This document shows positions 4,342 to 21,033 of a stretch of DNA of 64,000 nucleotides, piece by piece. Both the position numbers and the translations under genes were made by a program. The number at the start of each line of letters is the position of its first letter. The first letter of the stretch is position 1. The notes below the pieces were generated by a model. That model saw nothing but the letters and a program-made list of their open reading frames with translations, was not told the DNA's origin and searched no databases. Origin of the DNA: an uncultured Akkermansia sp. (lineage in GTDB: Bacteria > Verrucomicrobiota > Verrucomicrobiia > Verrucomicrobiales > Akkermansiaceae); contig CANPYO010000001.1 of the NCBI GenBank assembly GCA_947588645.1, positions 1 to 64,000 of the forward strand. The letters are read 5' to 3'.

Positions 4342-4410
4342 GGGATACCCGATTGGCACGGGATGCAACGATGCGCCAACCAGGCGCTACTCATACTACA
4401 CGCTACAGCA

Positions 4411-7400
4411 ATGAAACTGCATATTCCTACCCCACTTCGCAAAGCTTTACTCACCTGTATGGCTGCTGCCATGGCTCCATCTTTTGCCGGATTTGCTGCT
4501 TCCGGCTCGTTCATTGCGGGGGCGGCCGTTGTCATCTCTCTGTGTGCGCAGCAAGCCGAAGCAGCCGCCAAACTCACTTCGCACCGTACCACGAAGATGG
4601 AAGGCGAGGAAGAGGTCATCTATTCCGGGTACATCTTCACAATGACGGAAGCGGCAGAGGGCAACTTTACCGCCTCTCGTTACACATGGTACAATGCTCA
4701 AACCTTCCCTCCCGAAGATGATGCCGTGGCTTTTGAAGCGCTTGGTTCCGACAATGTCGATCTTGGAACCGGCAGGCTCGATAACAGTAATTGGACGGCG
4801 CTGTGGACATCGTTCCGAAATAATAACGCTGATAACAGCGAATACGGGCAGACGATGCGGTTTGCTGAATCGTTCACTGTTGGGCTGAGCTGGGATAACA
4901 TGTGGATGGGTGGTTTCATTGTTGAAAGAGGCGCTACCGTCAACTTGACTCCTGACACTGACAATAATAATACCACCCGCAACTTCCACCTCGCGGCCGG
5001 CGGTGGGCGTGGAAGTAACATTACAGTGCTTGGGACTCTGAATTTTACTGCCTCGGCAGGCAATTCAAGCACTCGCGTGCTGCATTTTGTCAGTAGCGGC
5101 GCGGTTAGCGTGATTCGCGTGGCACAGGGTTCTTCTTTCACCTTGGATGGATACAGTTTGCAAGTCGATGCCGCGTCAGTCGAAATTAAGAAAGTTGATA
5201 CGGGGTCGGAAAACAGTATTGCGGGTAGGGTCAACACCGGTGTGATCACCATTGCTTCAGGAGGTACCCTGACCGTGCGTGATGGCGCCAGACTTACGGT
5301 AGCTAACAGCGTGAGTGGCGATGGCAAGCTGGTATTGAATAACGGCACGCTGAATATGGGGAATTTCAAAGATGACGTAACTTCCCCTGTTCTTGTCGAT
5401 ATATTGAATCTTAGTGCGCAAGGTAGTGACAACTTCATTCTTGGCGAAACCTATACAATCCATAGCTTGGAGATTGGAAATGATGCAACCCTCGCTATCA
5501 ATTCCGGTGTTGGAACCGTAGAAGCGCTGAAGGACTCTGGCAAGGGAGTTTCCGGCGAGGTAGAGGTGAGCGGTTCTAATACTCAATTGACCATCCGGAA
5601 GGGCGGCGGATCATCTTTCAGTGGCACGGTGTCTGTGAGCAATGGCGCCGTCCTCCACATGGAAGAAACCTTGGAAGATGCCACACTTGGCAGGAGTGCC
5701 ACGCTCGTGGTCTCCGATGGTGGTCACTTGGAGCTGGGGGGCAACGGCGACATTCAGAACAAAGTCATAGTGAAGGGGGGATTTATTGATCAACCCCGTC
5801 GTTTGCAGGGAGACGTGATTTTGGGCATGGAAAGCGGCTCGATTGATCTGGACCAAATGGATGCGAAAAACCTCCATTTTGATCACAACGCCGGGAGTGT
5901 CACCGGTCTGAGGGGGGGATCCACGATCACCTTCGGCAGCTACGAGGATGAGAACGGGGAGACTCAAAAAGACAGCATTAAGCTGGGAGCCGCCAATGTG
6001 ACCAGAGAGGGAGAGAACGGTACCTATTTTTTACAGTTCAGAGGCAACGGATCCATAGATTTTGAGGAGGATGGCGAGCTTTACATTGACGTCGATACGG
6101 AGGTTGCCAAAGACATGGATGGGAAATACGTGCTCTGGATCAGTAATGGCACCATCAGTGCCGAGACTATGCAGAGGCTGCTCGACGAGAAAAAAATTGT
6201 ATTTGATGGACTATTAGAGGGCATGGTATGCCGACTGGAACAGGAGGAGGGTGATAGTAGCTTCCGTCTCGTACTCGATGGCAACATAGAAGGGATATGG
6301 TTTGCCAGCGAAAGGGGAGATATTGAGAGTTCCGGGTGGGATGATGGCCTTTACGGCGGCGGGTCGTGGAGTGGGGTATGCGTCGACAGGAATATGGAGG
6401 TGAAGCTGAATCTGGATGAAGAAGTCGGGGAGAGAAGTGTCGTGCTGCCGCAGTTAAAAGGGAATTCCGGCATGACCCTCTCTCTGAAGAACGACGGTTC
6501 CGACCTTCTCACCGTTAAATTGGACAATGGGAAGACGGACAGCAATATGGAAGGGAACATCCAAGTGGGGGACAGAGTCCGGGTAGAGAAAACTGGCGCG
6601 GAACGGCTCACCGTTACGGGCAACATGACGTCGAAGGGGACGGTTGTTGTGGAAGAGGGAACGCTCCGTTTAGAAGGCAAAAAAAACTCTATCGGCGTGC
6701 TGGATGTGAAAGAGGGCGCCGCACTCAACGTTTCAGGCACACTCACGCTGACTGACGACAGCGACCTGACCGGGGGAACCCTTGAGGGCATCGGAACGCT
6801 CGCTTTGGAGAAGAGTCTGGATCTCAGCAATGCTGTTTTAGGGCGCGTACTGACCATCGATTTTAGCAATCAAAATGCCAAGCTTACCATCGGTGACCGC
6901 GAGGCGCAAGTGGGCGGTCTGTCCGGCGACGGTTCCCTTTCGCTGAACGGTGACAATAGCAATCTCACCATCTCAGGCGAAAATAAATCCGGCAGCTTCA
7001 GTTTTGGAGGCAAGTTGGAGGTGAAGGAAGGGGGCGCCGGAACCATCTCTGTCATCCAGGGTGCTGACCAGGAGTTCACCGGCGCCGGCCATGAGAACAT
7101 CAACCTTCATATTGGCGAGCAGGTTGCCCCGGAGAATCCGGAGGATCCGGGGGCATCCGGTGACGGTTCTCCTCTTACAAGAGCCGGCGAAACCGGAGCC
7201 GTTCTCCGCTTGTCCGGAAAGTCTACGTACGGCGAGGTGATGGTCAGGAATACCGGTAAACTGGTGGTAGGACCAAACAGCGTCGTCACCGCTTCCAGCC
7301 TCGTGCTTGAAAAAGATTCCTGCTTGGAGCTGGTTATCGACAGTAACACGCTCGACGGCGGCGATATGAACAATCTCGACGCTCCTGTGAAGGTGGAAAA

Positions 7401-8883
7401 TAAGCATGAGGATTCCGGTTCCCTCCGCGTGGAAAAGGGTTCGAAACTCAAGATCAGCTTCAGGGATGACGGAGATGGCGGATCTATCCTTCAGCCTGGC
7501 GAGGATCTGTATGTTCGTCTTCTTGATTATGAAAACCTCGAGAGCGACGAGGGAGAAAACTATACGACAGGAGATACCTTCGAGGACAAAGATCTCAAAC
7601 TGGACGATCTCTTTGACTTCTACTACACCGACGTGCATGTCGAGTTCCGGAATAACGGCGGATCGAATGATGGAGGAGTTTACCTGACGGGCACGTCGAT
7701 TCAGGGGAATCCTTTCGAAAGAACAGCCAATACGGTCAATTCGAAGGTCGGTGCAACCATGCTCTGGGACGCTCGTGACGCTCTGCTGCAAACCGATTCG
7801 CCGGATGCTACCCTCAAAAGTGTCCTGAACGCCGTCAAGGAGCAGAGCAAAGATGCCCCAAGTGAGGCGAACCGGATCATGTCCGCCGTAGCCGGAAGCA
7901 CCGTGACAGCCCTGGGATCAGCTCAGCGCGATAGCATGCGCCGCCAGCTTTCCCGCATTCGCCAGCACTCCAACACGCTTGGTCTCACCCCGGGCTATCA
8001 GTACAATGATATGCCCTACTACCACACATGGTTGGAAGGCACCAGCTCGTACTCTCGACTGAGGCAAGATGGCGATTCCGCGGGCTACAAACACCAGTCT
8101 TGGGGCGGAAGCTTTGGTATCGACGCCGATGTGACTGAGCGTACCTCTCTGGGCATGTCAGTCACTGCCTTGTACGGCGACTTGGATGCCGATGCCAGCG
8201 ATACGGCAACCGGGCACTTGGACAGCTACTACCTCTCCGGCATCATGCGCACACAAATTGGCCGCTGGGGTCACACTTTCATCCTGTCCGGCGGCATTGA
8301 CCGCGCTAAGCTGGATCGTACCGTTGAGTACGATCGTACCGGTGAGTACGGCTCCGGCTCCTATGCAGCCAAGGGCTCCACCCATGGCTGGGCTCTGGGC
8401 GCCGTCTATGAGATGACCTACGATCTTCCCGTGGGTGAAGAGCACAATTACCTCTTCCAACCCCTCGTGAACTTGAGCTACGTGCGCTCCTTTATGAAGG
8501 GGTACAACGAAAACGGTCCCTCTGTTTTGAATCTGAACGTGGATGATCAGGTCTGGGATACATTTACGATAGGTATTGGCGCCCGCTGGATTGGCACTTT
8601 GGAAGAAACGACGCTGGAGCGCCGCATCCAGGTGGAATTTTCTGCCATGGTGTTACAGGATCTGGCTGATAGTCGCGGCAGCGCTGATGTCTCTCTGCAG
8701 GCTACCCCCGGTGCCATCCATACCGTCTACGGCGCTGAATATGGTCGCACCGCCGTACAGGTGGGCGCAGCCTTTCGCGTTCCCATATCCGAGCAGACTC
8801 TCATCTACCTCAATACTGATGCCGAGTTCCGGCAGGGTAACACAGCTTGGCAAGCCAGCCTCGGCATGCGCTACGACTTCTGA
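4411..8883 (+). CDS. Autotransporter with beta-helix-type passenger and C-terminal beta-barrel
   Basis: Start MKLHIPTPLRKALLTCMAAAM (signal-like) at 4411; Gly/Thr/Ser-rich repeats; C-terminal barrel from about nt 8020 ending in aromatic MRYDF. The ORF track opens at 4363. Confidence 0.85.
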   Translation: MKLHIPTPLRKALLTCMAAAMAPSFAGFAASGSFIAGAAVVISLCAQQAEAAAKLTSHRTTKMEGEEEVIYSGYIFTMTEAAEGNFTASRYTWYNAQTFPPEDDAVAFEALGSDNVDLGTGRLDNSNWTALWTSFRNNNADNSEYGQTMRFAESFTVGLSWDNMWMGGFIVERGATVNLTPDTDNNNTTRNFHLAAGGGRGSNITVLGTLNFTASAGNSSTRVLHFVSSGAVSVIRVAQGSSFTLDGYSLQVDAASVEIKKVDTGSENSIAGRVNTGVITIASGGTLTVRDGARLTVANSVSGDGKLVLNNGTLNMGNFKDDVTSPVLVDILNLSAQGSDNFILGETYTIHSLEIGNDATLAINSGVGTVEALKDSGKGVSGEVEVSGSNTQLTIRKGGGSSFSGTVSVSNGAVLHMEETLEDATLGRSATLVVSDGGHLELGGNGDIQNKVIVKGGFIDQPRRLQGDVILGMESGSIDLDQMDAKNLHFDHNAGSVTGLRGGSTITFGSYEDENGETQKDSIKLGAANVTREGENGTYFLQFRGNGSIDFEEDGELYIDVDTEVAKDMDGKYVLWISNGTISAETMQRLLDEKKIVFDGLLEGMVCRLEQEEGDSSFRLVLDGNIEGIWFASERGDIESSGWDDGLYGGGSWSGVCVDRNMEVKLNLDEEVGERSVVLPQLKGNSGMTLSLKNDGSDLLTVKLDNGKTDSNMEGNIQVGDRVRVEKTGAERLTVTGNMTSKGTVVVEEGTLRLEGKKNSIGVLDVKEGAALNVSGTLTLTDDSDLTGGTLEGIGTLALEKSLDLSNAVLGRVLTIDFSNQNAKLTIGDREAQVGGLSGDGSLSLNGDNSNLTISGENKSGSFSFGGKLEVKEGGAGTISVIQGADQEFTGAGHENINLHIGEQVAPENPEDPGASGDGSPLTRAGETGAVLRLSGKSTYGEVMVRNTGKLVVGPNSVVTASSLVLEKDSCLELVIDSNTLDGGDMNNLDAPVKVENKHEDSGSLRVEKGSKLKISFRDDGDGGSILQPGEDLYVRLLDYENLESDEGENYTTGDTFEDKDLKLDDLFDFYYTDVHVEFRNNGGSNDGGVYLTGTSIQGNPFERTANTVNSKVGATMLWDARDALLQTDSPDATLKSVLNAVKEQSKDAPSEANRIMSAVAGSTVTALGSAQRDSMRRQLSRIRQHSNTLGLTPGYQYNDMPYYHTWLEGTSSYSRLRQDGDSAGYKHQSWGGSFGIDADVTERTSLGMSVTALYGDLDADASDTATGHLDSYYLSGIMRTQIGRWGHTFILSGGIDRAKLDRTVEYDRTGEYGSGSYAAKGSTHGWALGAVYEMTYDLPVGEEHNYLFQPLVNLSYVRSFMKGYNENGPSVLNLNVDDQVWDTFTIGIGARWIGTLEETTLERRIQVEFSAMVLQDLADSRGSADVSLQATPGAIHTVYGAEYGRTAVQVGAAFRVPISEQTLIYLNTDAEFRQGNTAWQASLGMRYDF

Positions 8884-11464: not shown

Positions 11465-11561
11465 CGACGTCCGTACCCCTCAAATCGTACATGGGCACAC
11501 TCCATCTGCCATCGGGCGCCAATGGCTGCGTGTTTGGTTACGCTTTTTTTCGGGACGGATG

Positions 11562-11803
11562 CAGGGCAACCGCATTAGAAAATGCAGTTGCCTATGTACG
11601 AAGTACGATGTACGATGTACGATTTATTAATAATGTGCGCGTTGCGCGGATTTTTTCGGATCATTAATGTCTGCTGAAATCTCTTTGGAGCCAATATCAT
11701 GATGATCTCTTGTTGTCATGATTTTTGATGCGTATAAACGGTGATATCAGTCAATAAGAGCATTTCCTCTGTCGATTGACTTCTCTCAAATGCGTTTGCC
11801 CTG
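11562..11803 (+). mobile_element. MITE-like repeat, copy 1
   Basis: CAGGGCAACCGCATT...AAATGCGTTTGCCCTG termini; flanked by 10-bp direct repeat GGGACGGATG (11552-11561 / 11804-11813). Confidence 0.75.
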
Positions 11804-11865
11804 GGGACGGATGTGGACTGCTTGACATTTATCGTTTATTTTTTCAGCGTTTTCGCAAAATCTCC

Positions 11866-11907: not shown

Positions 11908-11979
11908 AGGGCTATGGTGTAATTGGCAACACATCGGTTTCTGGCACCGCTATTCGGGGTTCGAGTCCCTGTAGCCCTA
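11908..11979 (+). tRNA. tRNA-Gln (anticodon CTG)
   Basis: AGGGCTA/TAGCCCT acceptor stem, D-arm TGTAATTGGCAACA, anticodon loop TTCTGGC, T-arm CGGGGTTCGAGTCCCTG. Confidence 0.88.
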
Positions 11980-12140: not shown

Positions 12141-12176
12141 AAAAAAATAGCCCGCCGAGTCTAGCCACCCGGCGGG
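12141..12176 (-). terminator. Rho-independent terminator (minus strand)
   Basis: Minus strand CCCGCCG GGTGGCTAGACT CGGCGGG CTATTTTTTT. Confidence 0.8.
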
Positions 12177-12210
12177 TTGATTAGGAAAGAGGTCGAAGAC
12201 CCCATCTGAT
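12143..12210 (-). ncRNA. Predicted ~70-nt small RNA, candidate RNA antitoxin to the 12303-12374 peptide mRNA
   Basis: Own promoter (TTGACA 12240-12245, N17, TATCCT 12217-12222) and own terminator; three complementarity blocks to adjacent mRNA. Confidence 0.6.
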
Positions 12211-12216
12211 ACAGCA

Positions 12217-12245
12217 AGGATATATCTCCGGAGCGGAAGTGTCAA
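12217..12245 (-). promoter_or_regulatory. Predicted promoter of the small RNA
   Basis: Minus strand TTGACA-17 nt-TATCCT. Confidence 0.6.
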
Positions 12246-12302
12246 GAAAAATTTTTCTCCACCTTTCGGCTCCCACCCGGCTAGAGGTGGGAGCCGGTCT
12301 GG

Positions 12303-12374
12303 TCACTTAAGCAACAAGAGCACGATTATATCTCCAATGCACTTGATGAGTACCCAGACATCAGATGGAGTCAT
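12303..12374 (-). CDS. 23-aa hydrophobic peptide, candidate type I toxin
   Basis: ATG...TGA encoding MTPSDVWVLIKCIGDIIVLLLLK; SD AAGGAGG 13 nt upstream; dedicated promoter; too short for the ORF track. Confidence 0.6.
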   Translation of the reverse strand: MTPSDVWVLIKCIGDIIVLLLLK

Positions 12375-12415
12375 CTTTATATATTATCCTCCTTCCTAAG
12401 CCTTGCGGCAGGGAT

Positions 12416-12444
12416 ATTTTACCCGTTTTTCACTCGCCTGTCAA
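12416..12444 (-). promoter_or_regulatory. Sigma70-type promoter of the 23-aa peptide gene
   Basis: Minus strand TTGACA-17 nt-TAAAAT with A-rich upstream sequence. Confidence 0.7.
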
Positions 12445-12519
12445 GCTTTTTCTGCAACTTTTTTCACTTTTTTATTCTTTTTCTCATTATTTTTTTTTGG
12501 TATTTTCGCATTTTTTTGC

Positions 12520-12547
12520 TTGACAGCTCACGCCGTGCCCGTAAAAT
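12520..12547 (+). promoter_or_regulatory. Promoter of the HTH gene
   Basis: TTGACA-16 nt-TAAAAT ending 10 nt before ATG. Confidence 0.6.
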
Positions 12548-12556
12548 TCACCCGTT

Positions 12557-12901
12557 ATGATGACACCGAAAGAACTAGCTACGGCCATAAAACAGCGCAA
12601 AATACCACGCCAAGAGATCGCTCACCGCATGGGCATCAGCAAGGGCACGCTCGCTCATTGGCTCGCCGGGTTGGATCCCATCCCCGCCCGAAAGCAGCGC
12701 GTGCTCGAGGAAATTATCGCGCAGGAAACGCACCCGGAATTCAACGCCGTTGCCGCCTTCGCCGTACGCTTCTCCATCCGCGAACTCCGCACCGTGAAAT
12801 CCCTTTGGGGCAACGCCTCCACGCCCGCCGGCATGGAGAAGCTTTTGCGTGCTCTCGCTCTCGGTGAGCGCAAGCCGCGCAAAAAAGACTCATCCTGCTA
12901 G
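12557..12901 (+). CDS. Small helix-turn-helix (XRE/Cro-like) DNA-binding protein
   Basis: 114 aa; RQEIAHRMGISKGTLAHWLAGLDPIP helix-turn-helix pattern. Confidence 0.65.
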   Translation: MMTPKELATAIKQRKIPRQEIAHRMGISKGTLAHWLAGLDPIPARKQRVLEEIIAQETHPEFNAVAAFAVRFSIRELRTVKSLWGNASTPAGMEKLLRALALGERKPRKKDSSC

Positions 12902-13200
12902 TTTCCGGCTCAACCATCCGGTTGATTCATAGACAAGCATTCGCTTCACGCCGTCTTGCTCGTCGAGCATACGCTGGATCTGATCTATGCCCTCACAACT
13001 CCTCACCCCTGCGGGGCAAAAGCCATGCTTTTGGCTAAACTGCCTTACGCCGTCGGCAGTTTTCACCCTGCGGGGCAGCCCTGCGGGCTGGCTAATCGGC
13101 CTTCCGTCCGTCGGCCGCTTTCTAACCACCCCCGCGCACGGTTTCATCACATCCCTTCGCTGAAGCTTTGCATAGCCCGCGCCTCAGGCGCGCTATAATT

Positions 13201-13233
13201 CAAATCGTAAATCGTAAATCGTAAATCGTAAAT
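13201..13233. repeat. AAATCGT heptamer array
   Basis: CAAATCGTAAATCGTAAATCGTAAATCGTAAAT. Confidence 0.9.
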
Positions 13234-13335
13234 GACCAATGGCTTATGCTTCATGATGTGCCGTTAACTACCTATTGGAGGTACATTTTCTTGGGACGGA
13301 TGTGGATTTTATTGGGGCAGCAAAGCGGATTATGC

Positions 13336-13382: not shown

Positions 13383-13456
13383 GGCGGGATAGCCAAGTGG
13401 TCTAAGGCAGCAGTTTGCAAAACTGCCATTCGCGGGTTCGAATCCCGCTCCCGCCT
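13383..13456 (+). tRNA. tRNA-Cys (anticodon GCA)
   Basis: GGCGGGA/TCCCGCC acceptor with U73, anticodon arm GCAGT TTGCAAA ACTGC, T-arm GCGGGTTCGAATCCCGC. Confidence 0.92.
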
Positions 13457-13532
13457 CTCACGAAAGCGAGAGAACCCTGTGTCGAGAAAGCAGATGATTT
13501 GCGGCACGGGGCTTTTTAGTTGAACGCCTGTT

Positions 13533-15501: not shown

Positions 15502-18500
15502 ATGAAAAAGGATGGTGCAGATTACATTCGCATCCGAGGCGCGGCGGAAAATAATTTGAAGAAAATTGATGTGGATATCCCGCTCGGGAAACTGACGGTG
15601 GTGACGGGACCGAGCGGCAGCGGCAAGACGTCCCTGGCGATGGCTACCCTGTATGCAGAAGGGCAGCGACGTTACATGGAGACCTTTTCTCCGTACGTGC
15701 GGCAATTCATGGATCGCATGGACAGACCGGCGGTGGATGCTGTGGAAAATGTGCCGCCGGCTATTGCACTCGGCCAGAGAAATTCCATAAAAAACTCGCG
15801 TTCCACAGTGGGTACGATGACCGGCATGAACGAGTTTTTGAAGCTCGTCTTCTCGCGTCTTGCGGTGGGACATGATAAGCATGGGCACGAGGTGCGTCCC
15901 GCAACGCCGCAAGGGGTGGCAGCCGAGCTGCTGCGCGATCATCCGGGCGAGGAAGCCGCTGTCCTTTTCGGCGTGACTCCTGTGGGCAGCTTTGCGGAAA
16001 TGCGCGATGCGCTGGTGGCTCAGGGGTATTTGCGGGTGTGGGTGAAGGGCAAAATCATGCGTCTGGAGGATGCTTCGGAAAAGCAGCTGGGGATGAACGC
16101 GTGGCTCGTGGTGCAGGACCGCGTGCGCCTGACGCCCGAGAATGAGCCGCGTCTGACGGAAGCGTTGGAAAATGCCCTGCATTTCGGACAAAACATCGTC
16201 CAATGTTCGTTGCGCGCGGAAGACGGCAGCTGGGGCAAACCCATGCAGCGACGCAGTGATTGGTACCCCCTGCTCGAGCCGCAGCCGGGGCTTTTCAGCG
16301 GCAATTCTCCCCTGGGCGCGTGCCCCGAATGCAAGGGCTACGGTCGCGCGATCTCCTACGACTACAACAAGGGGTTGATCCCGGATCTCTCCATCCGCGA
16401 TGGCGCCCTCAAGATGCTCTCCACCCCCACGCTGTCCGCCTGCTTCCGCGACTTCGTCCGCGTGAATAAAAAATGCAAGGCGGTGCGCATGGATGTTCCC
16501 TGGAACAAGCTCACCCAAAAAGAGCGCGACTTTGTGCTGCTGGGCAACTGCGGGGATTTGGATGTCTGGCAGGCCTACGATCAGGGCTATTGGTACGGCT
16601 ACAAGGGCATTTTTGAGGATATGGAGAAGCACGCGCACAAGCTCACCGTTCGCGTTTTCCTGGCGTACTACCGCGTGTACAGCGTGTGCCCGGCGTGCGG
16701 TGGCGGACGTCTCAGACCCGAGGCTCTCGCCTTCACCTTGGGCGGGCTTACGGTGCCGCAGGTGCAGGCCTTGCCCATGGATGAGCTGCTGGTTTGGGTG
16801 GATACGCATGTCCTGCCGCAGGTGGGGAAGGATCGCTCGCTGGCGCTGGCCGTGCGCGAGCTGCGGAGTCGCGTGGCCTACCTGTGCGAGGTGGGCTTGC
16901 CGTATCTGAGCGCCTCGCGGCTCACGCGGTCGCTCTCCGGCGGCGAGATCGAGCGCGTGAGCCTCACTGCGTGCCTGGGCGCTTCGCTCACGGAGTCGCT
17001 TTTCGTGCTGGATGAACCGACGGTCGGCCTGCACTCGCGCGATACTTCGCGTCTCATCTCAGCCATGCAGAAATTGACCGCACGTGGCAACACTTTGGTT
17101 GTGGTGGAACATGAGGAGGCGGTGATGCGCGCGGCAGACTACATCGTCGATATGGGACCAACCGGCGGCTCTGCGGGTGGCAAATTGGTGTATGCGGGAA
17201 CCCCGGCCGGGCTGCTCAAGTCGCCGAAATCGCTCACCGGTCAATACCTGACGGGCGCCCGTTCCATCCCCATCCCCAAGAAACGCCGCAAACCATCCGG
17301 CATGATTCGCATACGCGGCGCCGAATGCCACAATCTCCACCGCTTCGACGTGGATATCCCGCTCGGCGTGTACACCTGCCTCACCGGTGTATCGGGAAGC
17401 GGCAAGAGCACGCTCGCCTGTCAAGTCCTCTACGGTCACGTGCATCCGGAAGAGCTGGACGATGAAGAGAGCGTACGCGTGAAGTCCATTCGCGGGTTGG
17501 AGAAAGTGCAGGAAGTCGTGCTGGTGGATCAGAGTCCCATCGTGCGAACGCCTCGTTCCACCCCCGCGCTCTACATGAAATTTTTCGAAGATATCCGCGC
17601 CCTTTTCGTTCAGGAGCCCACGGCTCAGGCGCGGGGTCTGAAACCCGGCTACTTTTCCTTCAACAGCGGGGAAGGCCGCTGCCCGCGTTGCGCAGGGCTG
17701 GGCATGGAAAAGGTGGAGATGCAGTTCCTCTCGGATATTTTCGTGCCCTGCGCGCTCTGCCACGGCTCGCGCTACACGCCGCAGGCTCTCAGCATCACTC
17801 ACCGTGGTTTGAGTATGGCCGATGTGCTGGCTCTGGACGTCAAGTCGGCCATTCGCTTTTTCTCCCAAGAAGCCAACGCCCATGGGGAGCGCATCACGGC
17901 AGGTCTGGAGCTGCTGCAGGAGGTGGGGCTGGGACACCTGGGGCTCGGGCAGCCCTTGCATACCCTCTCAGGCGGCGAAAATCAGCGACTCAAGCTCGCG
18001 CGCATCCTTTCCGAATCGAGCCTCTCTGCCGATGGCCGCGGGAGTTTGCTGATATTGGATGAGCCGGGTACGGGGCTTCATTTTTCGGATTTGGAGGCGC
18101 TGCTGGCAGTCTTCAACCGCTTGGTGGCGCAGGGACACTCGCTCCTGGTCATCGAGCACAATCTCGATCTCATCAAATGCGCGGATTACGTGATCGACTT
18201 GGGGCCGGAGGGTGGCAAGGGGGGCGGGCGCATCGTGGCTTCCGGCACGCCGGAACAGGTCGTGAAGCAAGGGCAGGGGCATACGGCCGCTTTTCTGAAG
18301 CTCGCTCTCGCCGCCGATCCCATTGTTCCGCAGTTGCCCGCCCCGGCTCGTGAGTCGTCCTCTTCCTCGCGCATGATTTCCCTGCGCGGCGCCCGCCACC
18401 ACCAGCTCAAGAACATCGATGTGGATATCCCCTTGCACGAAATGACCGTGGTCACCGGCCTCTCCGGCAGTGGCAAGAGTACACTCGCCTTCGACATCAT

Positions 18501-21033
18501 TTTCGCGGAGGGGCAGAAGCGTTTTATGGACGTGATGAGTCCCTACGCGCGCCAATTCACCGATCAGATGGAGACGCCGGATATTGATGCGCTCACCGGG
18601 TTGCCCCCTACGGTTGCCATCGAGCAAAATCGCTCTCGCGGCGGCAGTAAATCCACCGTCGGCACGGTCACGGAGATATGGCAATACCTGCGCCTGCTCT
18701 ACGCTAAACTCGGCACGCCGCATTGCCCGCGCTGCGGGGTCGAGGTCGGTCGCCGCTCTCCCGCAGAAATCCACGCCGTCGTGCAGCAGTTCATCGCTCG
18801 CAAACCGGCTTCGCTGCTCATCGCCGCTCCGGTCGTGCGCAACCGCAAGGGCCATTACGCTGACCTGGCGCGCTGGGCTGCTCGCAAGCATTATCCTTTC
18901 CTCATCGCGGATGGCTCCCTCGTGGCTCCGGATGATTTCACGCCCCTGGATCGCTACTCCAATCACGATGTGGATGTGGTGCTCGCCGAAATTGCGGTGA
19001 AACGTAATGCCATTTCCATGAATGGCTCCCCCTGCGACTTCGCGACGCTGCAGGAGTGCATCGATCGCGCCCTGGAGATGGGCGACGGTTTCCTGCGCCT
19101 CATCACTTCGCGCAATGTGCAGCGTGCCACATTGCTCGGCACGCGTCTCACCTGCCCGAAATGCGGGGAATCTTACGCCGACCCCGAACCGTCCACCTTT
19201 TCTTTCAACTCACCGCATGGGTGGTGTCCCGTTTGCCTGGGGCATGGCTTCGTGCAACAGCGCTCCCATGCCCATCGAGATGACGACGCCCGCACCAGCG
19301 AACTCGAAAAAGAACTGCGTTTTGATTTGGAAGCCGAGCAAGCCGCTGAAAAGGGCGAGCTCTCCTGCGTATGTCCTGCGTGCGGCGGGCAGCGTCTGAA
19401 TCCCTTTGCTCTCGGTGTCACTCTCTTTGGTCGCTCCATCGCTGAGCTGGGCGAGGCGGATGCCCAATCCGCTCTGCGCATGGTGCAGGACTGGCGTTTC
19501 AGCGGACGGGAGGCCGAAATCGCCCGCAACGTGGTGGCCGAAATTGAACCGCGCTTGCGCTTCCTGCAGGGCGTTGGCCTCGGCTACCTCTCGATGAACC
19601 GCGCTGCCACCACTCTCTCCGGCGGAGAAATCCAGCGCATTCGCCTGGCCGCTCAGCTGGGCTCCAACCTTCGTGGTGTGCTCTACGTCCTGGATGAACC
19701 GACTATCGGCTTGCACCCGCGCGACAATGATCGCCTGCTTGCCACGCTCGATGATCTGAAACGCCGCGGTAATACGCTGCTCGTGGTCGAACATGATGAG
19801 GACACCATGCGCCGCGCCGACCACCTGATCGACATGGGGCCCGGCGCCGGCATCCACGGCGGGCAGATTGTGGCTGAGGGGTCGCTCGACGAGATCATGC
19901 ACAACAGCGCTTCTGTCACCGGGCAGGCCTTTCGCCGGACGGATCAACACCCGTTTTGCGGCAAGTGGCTGCCGTTGAAGGATGCCGTCTGGCTCGAGCT
20001 CACGGGCTGCCGCCTGCACAATTTAAAAAACGTCACCCTGCGCATCCCCCGCGCTCGTTTCACGGTGGTGACCGGTCCTTCCGGCGCCGGCAAAACTTCG
20101 CTCATCACCGATACGCTCGGCCCCGCAGTGCGCCGCGCTGCCGGCGATTCCTCCATCCCCAAGACATGGAAGAGCGCCAAGGGCTTGGACACAGTGCGCG
20201 CGCTCTATCAAGTGGATCAAACCCCGTTGGGCAAAACCCCGCGTTCCACCCCCGCCACCTACATCGGCATCTTCGATGAAATACGCAAACTCTTCGCTCA
20301 GTCGGCGGATGCTCGCCGCCTCGGTTTCGATGCAAGCCGCTTTTCCTTCAACACCTCCTCCGGCAACTGCCCGGACTGCAAAGGCACCGGCTTCATCCGC
20401 CGCGAAATGGATTTCCTGCCGCCCTGCGCCGTGCCCTGCGAGACGTGTCGCGGTTCGCGTTACAACTCCCGCACCCTTCAGGTGCGCTACCATGGCAAGA
20501 CCATTGCTGAGGTGCTGGGGATGAATATGGAGCAGGCCGCCGCCTTTTTCGAAGGACAGCCCCGCCTTGCCGATCCCCTGCGTCTGCTCTGCGATACCGG
20601 TCTGGGCTATCTCACCCTCGGCCAGGCGAGCAACACTCTCTCCGGCGGCGAGGCGCAACGCATCAAACTCGTCTCCGAGCTCATCAAGGGACGTCGTGCC
20701 GCACTCACGGCCATTCGGCGCGGACGCACTCTCCCCCAAGACCTCTACCTCATTGAGGAGCCCACCATCGGCTTGCACCCCCAGGATGTCCGTCTGCTCG
20801 TCCGGGTCCTCCGCCGCCTCGTGGAGCTCGGCAATACCGTCGTCGTCATCGAGCATAATCTCGAGCTGATAGCCGAGGCCGATTACATCATCGATATGGG
20901 ACCCTCCGCCGGCGCAGAAGGTGGACAAATTATGGCGACAGGCACTCCCCGCCAACTCGCCCGCAGCAAATCCTCCCCCACGGCCTCCTTCATCCGCGCC
21001 GAGCTCGCCTCCGGAATACCCCGTCCGCACTGA
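15502..21033 (+). CDS. uvrA: Tandem-fused UvrA (two UvrA halves, four ABC ATPase domains)
   Basis: 1843 aa; four Walker A motifs (GPSGSGKTSLA, GVSGSGKSTLA, GLSGSGKSTLA, GPSGAGKTSLI), four LSGGE signatures, multiple CxxC zinc motifs. Confidence 0.9.
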   Translation: MKKDGADYIRIRGAAENNLKKIDVDIPLGKLTVVTGPSGSGKTSLAMATLYAEGQRRYMETFSPYVRQFMDRMDRPAVDAVENVPPAIALGQRNSIKNSRSTVGTMTGMNEFLKLVFSRLAVGHDKHGHEVRPATPQGVAAELLRDHPGEEAAVLFGVTPVGSFAEMRDALVAQGYLRVWVKGKIMRLEDASEKQLGMNAWLVVQDRVRLTPENEPRLTEALENALHFGQNIVQCSLRAEDGSWGKPMQRRSDWYPLLEPQPGLFSGNSPLGACPECKGYGRAISYDYNKGLIPDLSIRDGALKMLSTPTLSACFRDFVRVNKKCKAVRMDVPWNKLTQKERDFVLLGNCGDLDVWQAYDQGYWYGYKGIFEDMEKHAHKLTVRVFLAYYRVYSVCPACGGGRLRPEALAFTLGGLTVPQVQALPMDELLVWVDTHVLPQVGKDRSLALAVRELRSRVAYLCEVGLPYLSASRLTRSLSGGEIERVSLTACLGASLTESLFVLDEPTVGLHSRDTSRLISAMQKLTARGNTLVVVEHEEAVMRAADYIVDMGPTGGSAGGKLVYAGTPAGLLKSPKSLTGQYLTGARSIPIPKKRRKPSGMIRIRGAECHNLHRFDVDIPLGVYTCLTGVSGSGKSTLACQVLYGHVHPEELDDEESVRVKSIRGLEKVQEVVLVDQSPIVRTPRSTPALYMKFFEDIRALFVQEPTAQARGLKPGYFSFNSGEGRCPRCAGLGMEKVEMQFLSDIFVPCALCHGSRYTPQALSITHRGLSMADVLALDVKSAIRFFSQEANAHGERITAGLELLQEVGLGHLGLGQPLHTLSGGENQRLKLARILSESSLSADGRGSLLILDEPGTGLHFSDLEALLAVFNRLVAQGHSLLVIEHNLDLIKCADYVIDLGPEGGKGGGRIVASGTPEQVVKQGQGHTAAFLKLALAADPIVPQLPAPARESSSSSRMISLRGARHHQLKNIDVDIPLHEMTVVTGLSGSGKSTLAFDIIFAEGQKRFMDVMSPYARQFTDQMETPDIDALTGLPPTVAIEQNRSRGGSKSTVGTVTEIWQYLRLLYAKLGTPHCPRCGVEVGRRSPAEIHAVVQQFIARKPASLLIAAPVVRNRKGHYADLARWAARKHYPFLIADGSLVAPDDFTPLDRYSNHDVDVVLAEIAVKRNAISMNGSPCDFATLQECIDRALEMGDGFLRLITSRNVQRATLLGTRLTCPKCGESYADPEPSTFSFNSPHGWCPVCLGHGFVQQRSHAHRDDDARTSELEKELRFDLEAEQAAEKGELSCVCPACGGQRLNPFALGVTLFGRSIAELGEADAQSALRMVQDWRFSGREAEIARNVVAEIEPRLRFLQGVGLGYLSMNRAATTLSGGEIQRIRLAAQLGSNLRGVLYVLDEPTIGLHPRDNDRLLATLDDLKRRGNTLLVVEHDEDTMRRADHLIDMGPGAGIHGGQIVAEGSLDEIMHNSASVTGQAFRRTDQHPFCGKWLPLKDAVWLELTGCRLHNLKNVTLRIPRARFTVVTGPSGAGKTSLITDTLGPAVRRAAGDSSIPKTWKSAKGLDTVRALYQVDQTPLGKTPRSTPATYIGIFDEIRKLFAQSADARRLGFDASRFSFNTSSGNCPDCKGTGFIRREMDFLPPCAVPCETCRGSRYNSRTLQVRYHGKTIAEVLGMNMEQAAAFFEGQPRLADPLRLLCDTGLGYLTLGQASNTLSGGEAQRIKLVSELIKGRRAALTAIRRGRTLPQDLYLIEEPTIGLHPQDVRLLVRVLRRLVELGNTVVVIEHNLELIAEADYIIDMGPSAGAEGGQIMATGTPRQLARSKSSPTASFIRAELASGIPRPH

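Follow-up and report, generated by a model that had tools for sequence, protein, structure and literature searches.

A likely type I toxin-antitoxin module from a multi-copy Akkermansia family with small RNAs antisense to peptide start regions

Reported type I toxin-antitoxin systems are said to come from Proteobacteria, Firmicutes and Tenericutes alone, apart from a recent cyanobacterial candidate (PMC12390103); the paper describing that candidate, msoT1/msoA1, called it the first such case (PMC12390103). This narrow range is perhaps due to searches that depend on known sequences. ZorO is a peptide of 29 aa, Zor/Orz pairing covers 18 nt, and a variable stretch decides which RNA recognises which mRNA (PMC3919570). 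IstR-1 competes at a standby site 5' of the gene; the RNAs of TisB/IstR-1 and ShoB/OhsC are divergent, and tisB is under LexA (PMC8309996, PMC3919570). The full-length mRNAs of hok and aapA are closed by 5'-3' pairing and activated by truncation, and their antisense RNA is transcribed across the toxin gene on the opposite strand (PMC6733600). The genes of Fst/RNAII (par) are convergent and overlapping, with a common terminator repeat.

The locus described here lies in the window, a stretch of 64,000 nt of Akkermansia DNA. It is likely a type I toxin-antitoxin module of a new Akkermansia family. Its anatomy, the pairing, the co-variation, the purifying selection on the peptide, the phage context and the orphan RNAs were established by computation.

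Locus anatomy and antisense pairing

The window is part of a genome assembly (G000) of 2.49 Mb in 158 contigs. The following features were located on its minus strand.

12416..12444 (-): P1, promoter of the peptide mRNA, TTGACA-N17-TAAAAT; position and form shared by every HTH-linked homologous locus
12388..12399 (-): SD region of the peptide mRNA, target of antisense block 1; block kept with altered sequence in G092a and G092b
12303..12374, including stop (-): 23-aa hydrophobic peptide ORF, putative toxin of subtype A; ATG at 12374, stop ending at 12303, product MTPSDVWVLIKCIGDIIVLLLLK
12360..12372 (-): codons 1-5 of the peptide ORF, target of antisense block 2 (13 bp), from the duplex computation
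12267..12296 (-): GC-rich hairpin 3' of the ORF, no U-tract in subtypes A-C; read from the sequence and homologous loci
12217..12245 (-): P2, promoter of the antisense RNA, TTGACA-N17-TATCCT; present again at every homologous or orphan RNA locus
12141..12210 (-): antisense RNA of about 70 nt with intrinsic terminator (predicted antitoxin); T-run ends at 12141
12181..12192 (-): antisense block 1 (anti-SD); pairs with 12388-12399
12199..12210 (-): antisense block 2 (anti codons 2-5), from the duplex computation

The SD-like motif of the 23-aa ORF was AAGGAGG, and its distance to the ATG was long (13 nt). The hairpin behind the ORF (from 12296) was followed by an A-rich stretch instead of a U-tract; it is therefore unlikely to be an intrinsic terminator. 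The 70-nt RNA matched covariance model R2 with an E-value of 5e-14, the locus being part of the R2 training set; no Rfam match was obtained for the RNA at gathering score, only a chance-level match to flavi_FSE on the other strand. Relatives of the peptide with 52-55% identity were present in G092, and pN/pS was approximately 0.46 among three subtype A peptides. No Pfam or NCBIfam match to the peptide was found up to an E-value of 10; peptides of 22-35 aa are short for such tests, and some families are absent from the libraries.

Block 1 (12192-12181 against 12399-12388) comprised 12 bp and block 2 comprised 13 bp (GACTCCATCTGAT, RNA +2 to +14), or 14 bp with one extra base at the RNA 5' end. 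Only the portion of the RNA upstream of the terminator was used for duplex energies, because the GC-rich terminator dominates whole-RNA energies and makes these uninformative. Between the 5' domain of the RNA and the initiation region, the duplex energy was -39.6 kcal/mol versus -18.1 +/- 3.2 in 1000 dinucleotide shuffles; the z-score was -6.7, and none of the 1000 shuffles was equally strong. Pairing alone was not significant at a subtype C locus in G014 (z -0.9) and was marginal at G008b (z -2.0). The complementarity at the window locus is not due to chance, as settled by its conservation in related loci (see below).

An earlier note, made from the sequence alone, had proposed a candidate new type I toxin-antitoxin locus here. 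Its P1, SD, ATG at 12374, 23-aa ORF, hairpin, P2, RNA start near 12210 and terminator all held when the minus strand was re-read, as did its block 1 of 12 bp. Block 2, given there as 12 bp, also held and was in fact slightly longer (13-14 bp). The suspicion that the peptide matches no known toxin held as well, with no Pfam or NCBIfam match.

Co-variation of peptide and RNA across the family

When the window locus sequence was used in a DNA search, only its promoter part was found elsewhere. The view of the locus as an isolated case, suggested by that search, was rejected; a search with the protein of the divergent HTH gene exposed the family. Akkermansia genomes contain a multi-copy family with at least four peptide subtypes of 22-35 aa (A, 22-24 aa; B, 35 aa; C, 30 aa; D, about 32 aa), and at each locus a small RNA with a separate promoter and terminator is antisense to the start region of that locus's own peptide. 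The HTH-linked loci share one layout (P1-type promoter, short hydrophobic ORF, hairpin, P2, RNA with terminator) and differ in ORF sequence. Additional B and C copies, some in the window's own genome (G000:C89), have a different P1 and no HTH gene.

Covariance models of the RNA recovered RNA loci of B/C type (nearly 30 strong ones) and of A type (about 10), almost all within one genome clade. Subtype D was uncovered through weaker covariance matches, with 21 peptide matches in 12 other genomes of the genus. In an order-level search the B-type RNA model was practically limited to the genus, and model R1 gave one weak match outside it (G046, E 7.7e-6). The RNA was located downstream of the peptide gene in subtypes A, B, C and some D, and upstream in other D loci. 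A triple array of subtype D (L228, G070:C118) had the order RNA-toxin-RNA-toxin-RNA-toxin. A reading of this array by the RNA-downstream layout, with each RNA paired to the toxin upstream of it, was rejected; each RNA fitted the toxin directly 3' of itself. As a separate observation, subtypes B, C and D (e.g., L073, L033, L207) had a structured, GC-rich mRNA leader of the GCGCCCGTCAGGGCG...CGGGTGC type, which was conserved and without a clear SD.

Among 20 peptide/RNA pairs, the mean longest complementary run was 12.25 nt versus 9.11 +/- 0.54 when partners were permuted within subtypes, a value reached in none of 100,000 permutations. The mean energy of the same pairs was -30.6 versus -24.3 +/- 1.1 under within-subtype permutation (0/100,000). 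For 12 subtype D pairs with the RNA upstream, the mean run was 11.4 versus 8.75 +/- 0.42 (0/100,000). The two sets overlap in three pairs, giving 29 distinct pairs. The permutation tests were not corrected for the kinship of the loci, which is their main weakness; given the many different tags, inheritance alone is probably not the source of the co-variation. Two pairs can be read directly: in G094 the mRNA AAAAATGCC faces the RNA GGCATTTTT, and in L064 the mRNA AAAAACGC faces the RNA GCGTTTTT. In subtypes B and C the cognate RNA was not always the best by energy among all 20, and cross-talk between close B/C paralogs is possible.

Codons 2-7 of subtype B were hypervariable (pN 0.49, pS 0.38) and codons 8-35 nearly invariant (pN 0.051, pS 0.169), showing purifying selection on the peptide beyond the target codons. 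It is the variable codons that the antisense RNA targets, and its sequence tracks them; with the rest of the peptide constrained, the peptide is therefore a real, constrained product and its first codons are the address read by the RNA. The pairing footprint covered the SD and codons 2-5 in subtype A. In subtypes B-D it covered the start codon and codons 4-7, the latter via a stem-loop.

The earlier note had named homologs without a conserved ORF or complementarity as the case that would refute it. The opposite was seen: the ORF, both promoters, the hairpin and the terminator recurred, and complementarity was retained while its letters changed. Its proposal of a type I locus is thus supported by conserved architecture and co-variation, with toxicity and transcription still inferred. 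It did not mention that the locus belongs to a multi-copy family with orphan RNAs and a phage context, that an HTH gene lies divergent to it, or that the read-through mRNA is predicted to mask itself.

Genomic context and orphan RNAs

The surroundings of the module in the window contain the following features.

12557..12901 (+): divergent partner gene for a 114-aa HTH protein; Pfam HTH_3 E 3.4e-4 (below gathering score), PHROG regulator families E down to 1.4e-5
12520..12547 (+): promoter TTGACA-N16-TAAAAT of the divergent HTH gene, taken straight from the sequence; overlaps the palindrome CCGTnAAATTnACGG, the best kept element in homologs
11908-11979 (+): tRNA-Gln, on one side of the module
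13383-13457 (+): tRNA-Cys, on the other side of the module

A role of the palindrome CCGTnAAATTnACGG as operator is inferred. The HTH gene was common to seven complete loci (the window's own, two in G092, one in G014, two in G008, and L064), with homologs at the same place 77-88% identical. It was missing from most copies of the module, and it is therefore not essential to it. Distant HTH homologs (45-49%; L051, L058, L035, L052, L059) stood alone without a toxin module, near genes that, from reading the flanking sequence, we take to be murA- and aroC-like. The HTH protein had no match in IMG/VR, phage and plasmid sequences, and the subtype B coding pattern had no viral match.

The module was located between the two tRNA genes, with dispersed repeats on both sides (11561-11807 and 12991-13305). 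No tRNA was detected when six other copies (L064, L070, L072, L073, L205, L206) were scanned, and a common tRNA insertion site is thus not indicated. Two copies were found among phage genes. The subtype B copy of L064 was in a prophage, flanked by methyltransferase and DnaC-like genes and, at its other end, by genes for small membrane proteins and endolysin. In L235 (IMG/VR contig IMGVR_UViG_3300031555_005866), a toxin and RNA of subtype D, almost the same as those of G022:C53, lay opposite Bet/RecT-like, exonuclease, RusA-like and terminase small subunit genes, with no repressor. Both fit a phage-carried accessory gene with its own promoter and terminator. Elsewhere in the window, a 1843-aa ORF (15502-21033) has the look of a head-to-tail fusion of two UvrA-type ABC ATPases, and positions 4363-8883 encode a 1506-aa autotransporter-like repeat protein.

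Approximately 26 RNA loci had no intact peptide gene, some of them as tandem pairs. No intact A, B or C toxin without an adjacent RNA was found among the loci examined. Such an imbalance agrees with a peptide that harms and an RNA that protects, the toxicity being inferred. The toxin-less RNA copies of G094:C57 and G096:C51 were near-identical to the window locus RNA and matched the window locus mRNA over 18 contiguous bp, exceeding its own RNA. Similarly, the RNA of G000:C156 matched the G092b mRNA better than G092b's own RNA did. At L199, L205 and L206, a dispersed repeat abutted the module remnant at the former toxin site.

More generally, dispersed repeats (those of the window, at the positions given above, and those of L090, L199, L205 and L206) were observed to flank the module or to abut the deletion ends of toxin-less loci; they might be agents of toxin removal. 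Tandem toxin-less RNAs, A-type then B-type, were also noticed in two genomes (L187, G025:C2:43081-43312; L098, G093:C155:255-487), directly 3' of the end of an apparent DNA methyltransferase gene, and L069 and L202 were near a similar gene. Such tandem RNAs could be a guard or immunity arrangement. The orphans may be debris or immunity, either of which fits. In a bolder reading, of which we are a little more doubtful than convinced, this is a phage-borne type I family of Verrucomicrobiota whose first codons are a fast-evolving address tag recognised by an independently made RNA, and hosts hoard toxin-less RNAs, as single copies or tandem pairs, as RNA-based immunity against incoming toxin-bearing elements.

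Proposed mechanism, rival explanations and known systems

In the mechanism proposed here, toxicity, transcription, the translational block, the role of the HTH protein and any benefit are inferred. P1 would drive an mRNA for a short hydrophobic, probably membrane-inserting peptide whose translation would slow or kill the cell, and P2, on the same strand just 3' of the peptide gene, would give rise to an independent RNA of about 70 nt. This RNA would pair in two collinear blocks (RBS region and first codons) and block the ribosome start, with RNase III cleavage of the duplex as the likely next step. In subtypes B-D, the loop of a stem-loop would pair with codons 4-7 and a linker across the start codon, with the same blocking effect. 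Read-through from P1 to the shared terminator would give a long mRNA that carries its own antisense at the 3' end and is folded shut; a truncated or processed mRNA would be the translated form, restrained by the free RNA. The predicted 269-nt read-through transcript of the window locus folded with both blocks closed and the initiation region on its own 3' end (z -8.84). Self-closure was predicted in 8 of the 9 A-C loci tested; it is conditional on P1 read-through and was not shown in vivo. Closure is not expected in D loci, since the hairpin behind the ORF has a U-tract in that subtype. The divergent HTH protein would probably control its own promoter and perhaps P1 too. Paralogs would be insulated by the fast divergence of codons 2-7, which the RNA follows. 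Modules would move with phages and repeat-rich DNA, commonly losing the toxin and keeping the RNA, and a possible benefit is element maintenance or phage exclusion.

The strongest rival is that the small membrane peptide, under control of the antisense RNA, is regulatory and modulates a protein of the host or phage (e.g., in lysis timing or superinfection exclusion), and that its loss is harmless. In its favour, toxicity of the peptide is only inferred, the subtype B copy in the L064 prophage sits between the DNA methyltransferase gene and the small membrane-protein and endolysin genes, and the peptide was lost at many loci. However, a toxin also predicts peptide loss with the RNA kept, intact A-C peptides without RNA were not found, and a large number of paralogs with swapped specificity is usual in toxin-antitoxin families; we consider this rival unlikely. 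A cis fold-back element, in which the 3' "sRNA" is merely the mRNA 3' UTR that masks the start until cut and no separate RNA exists, would explain why the predicted read-through transcript folds exactly so. It is very improbable, as every copy, even an orphan that has no upstream gene, has P2 (16-17-nt spacing) in front of the RNA, and in many D loci the RNA is encoded before the peptide gene and ends at a terminator of its own, which a 3'-end element cannot account for.

Also very improbable is a phage immunity switch, in which a lysogeny control region resembling C4/icd/ant of phage P1 is made up of HTH repressor, short ORF and antisense RNA. The divergent HTH gene with a palindrome at its promoter and the prophage context of L064 speak for it, but most copies are without HTH and outside recognisable prophages, and the L235 module lies opposite phage recombination genes with no repressor. 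Chance complementarity or a leader-peptide attenuator can all but be ruled out. Pairing of 12-13 nt at a single locus can occur randomly in AT-rich DNA, and there is a hairpin 3' of a short ORF. However, chance is refuted by the conserved co-variation, on top of the z-score of -6.7, and for an attenuator no minus-strand gene lies within reach past the terminator, only tRNA-Gln on the other strand.

The type I toxin-antitoxin reading was compared with described systems. The short hydrophobic peptide ORF expected of the class was present (22-35 aa, a hydrophobic stretch, purifying selection outside the target codons), as was the nearby antisense RNA, significant alone at the window locus and co-varying in 29 distinct pairs. 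P2 and the terminator were conserved; toxicity, transcription of the RNA and repression by pairing are inferred. No type I system from Akkermansia or Verrucomicrobiota was found in the open literature searched, subscription journals being mostly outside its scope. If it is type I, the family places many loci in Verrucomicrobiota, in a gut-bacterial genus. It is a natural series of matched target/antisense variants for studying the evolution of RNA specificity, and its orphan antitoxin RNAs make the anti-addiction idea directly testable for RNA antitoxins. Microcystis msoT1/msoA1 is likewise a candidate type I locus outside Proteobacteria, Firmicutes and Tenericutes (PMC12390103), but it is from a cyanobacterium and has a different toxin, and no relation was shown.

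The 5'-3' long-distance closure of full-length mRNA in hok/Sok and aapA/IsoA resembles that predicted, on P1 read-through, in 8/9 A-C loci, but the closing 3' segment in Akkermansia is the (predicted) separately transcribed, same-strand antitoxin RNA. Ibs/Sib of E. coli also has several copies of hydrophobic toxins, of 19 aa, and an RNA with target recognition domains (PMC8309996). Sib, however, fully overlaps ibs on the opposite strand (PMC8309996), whereas the Akkermansia RNA and toxin genes do not overlap. The opposite-strand RNA of Hok/Sok, AapA/IsoA and Ibs/Sib was thus not seen; there is no overlap, and P2 is downstream on the same strand. Nor was the convergent overlap of Fst/RNAII (par) seen at the window or homologous loci.

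ZorO/OrzO and ZorP/OrzP of E. coli O157:H7 share with the Akkermansia loci a small hydrophobic peptide, an RNA with its own promoter, limited pairing and tandem paralogs (PMC3919570), with pairing blocks of 12-15 nt in the Akkermansia family versus 18 nt in Zor/Orz. Their RNA is divergent and pairs with the 5' UTR, whereas the Akkermansia RNA gene stands in tandem with the toxin gene, before or after it on the same strand, and the RNA is directed at the start codon and codons 2-7; the specificity tag therefore lies inside the coding region. Zor/Orz is also from a different phylum, with no sequence likeness in family searches. TisB/IstR-1 and ShoB/OhsC of E. coli are similar in their membrane peptides of 29 and 26 aa, separate RNA and limited pairing (PMC8309996, PMC3919570), but the Akkermansia loci have a dedicated HTH neighbour and the start region itself is paired. 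Two features of Zor/Orz, TisB/IstR and ShoB/OhsC were not met: the RNA was on the same strand, downstream or upstream, and not divergent, and toxin homology was not found (no Pfam/NCBIfam match up to E 10, with short peptides and incomplete libraries). The layout is nearest to this limited-pairing group, TisB/IstR, ShoB/OhsC and Zor/Orz; the Akkermansia family is not assigned to any of the three because its RNA is same-strand instead of divergent and reads the coding region.
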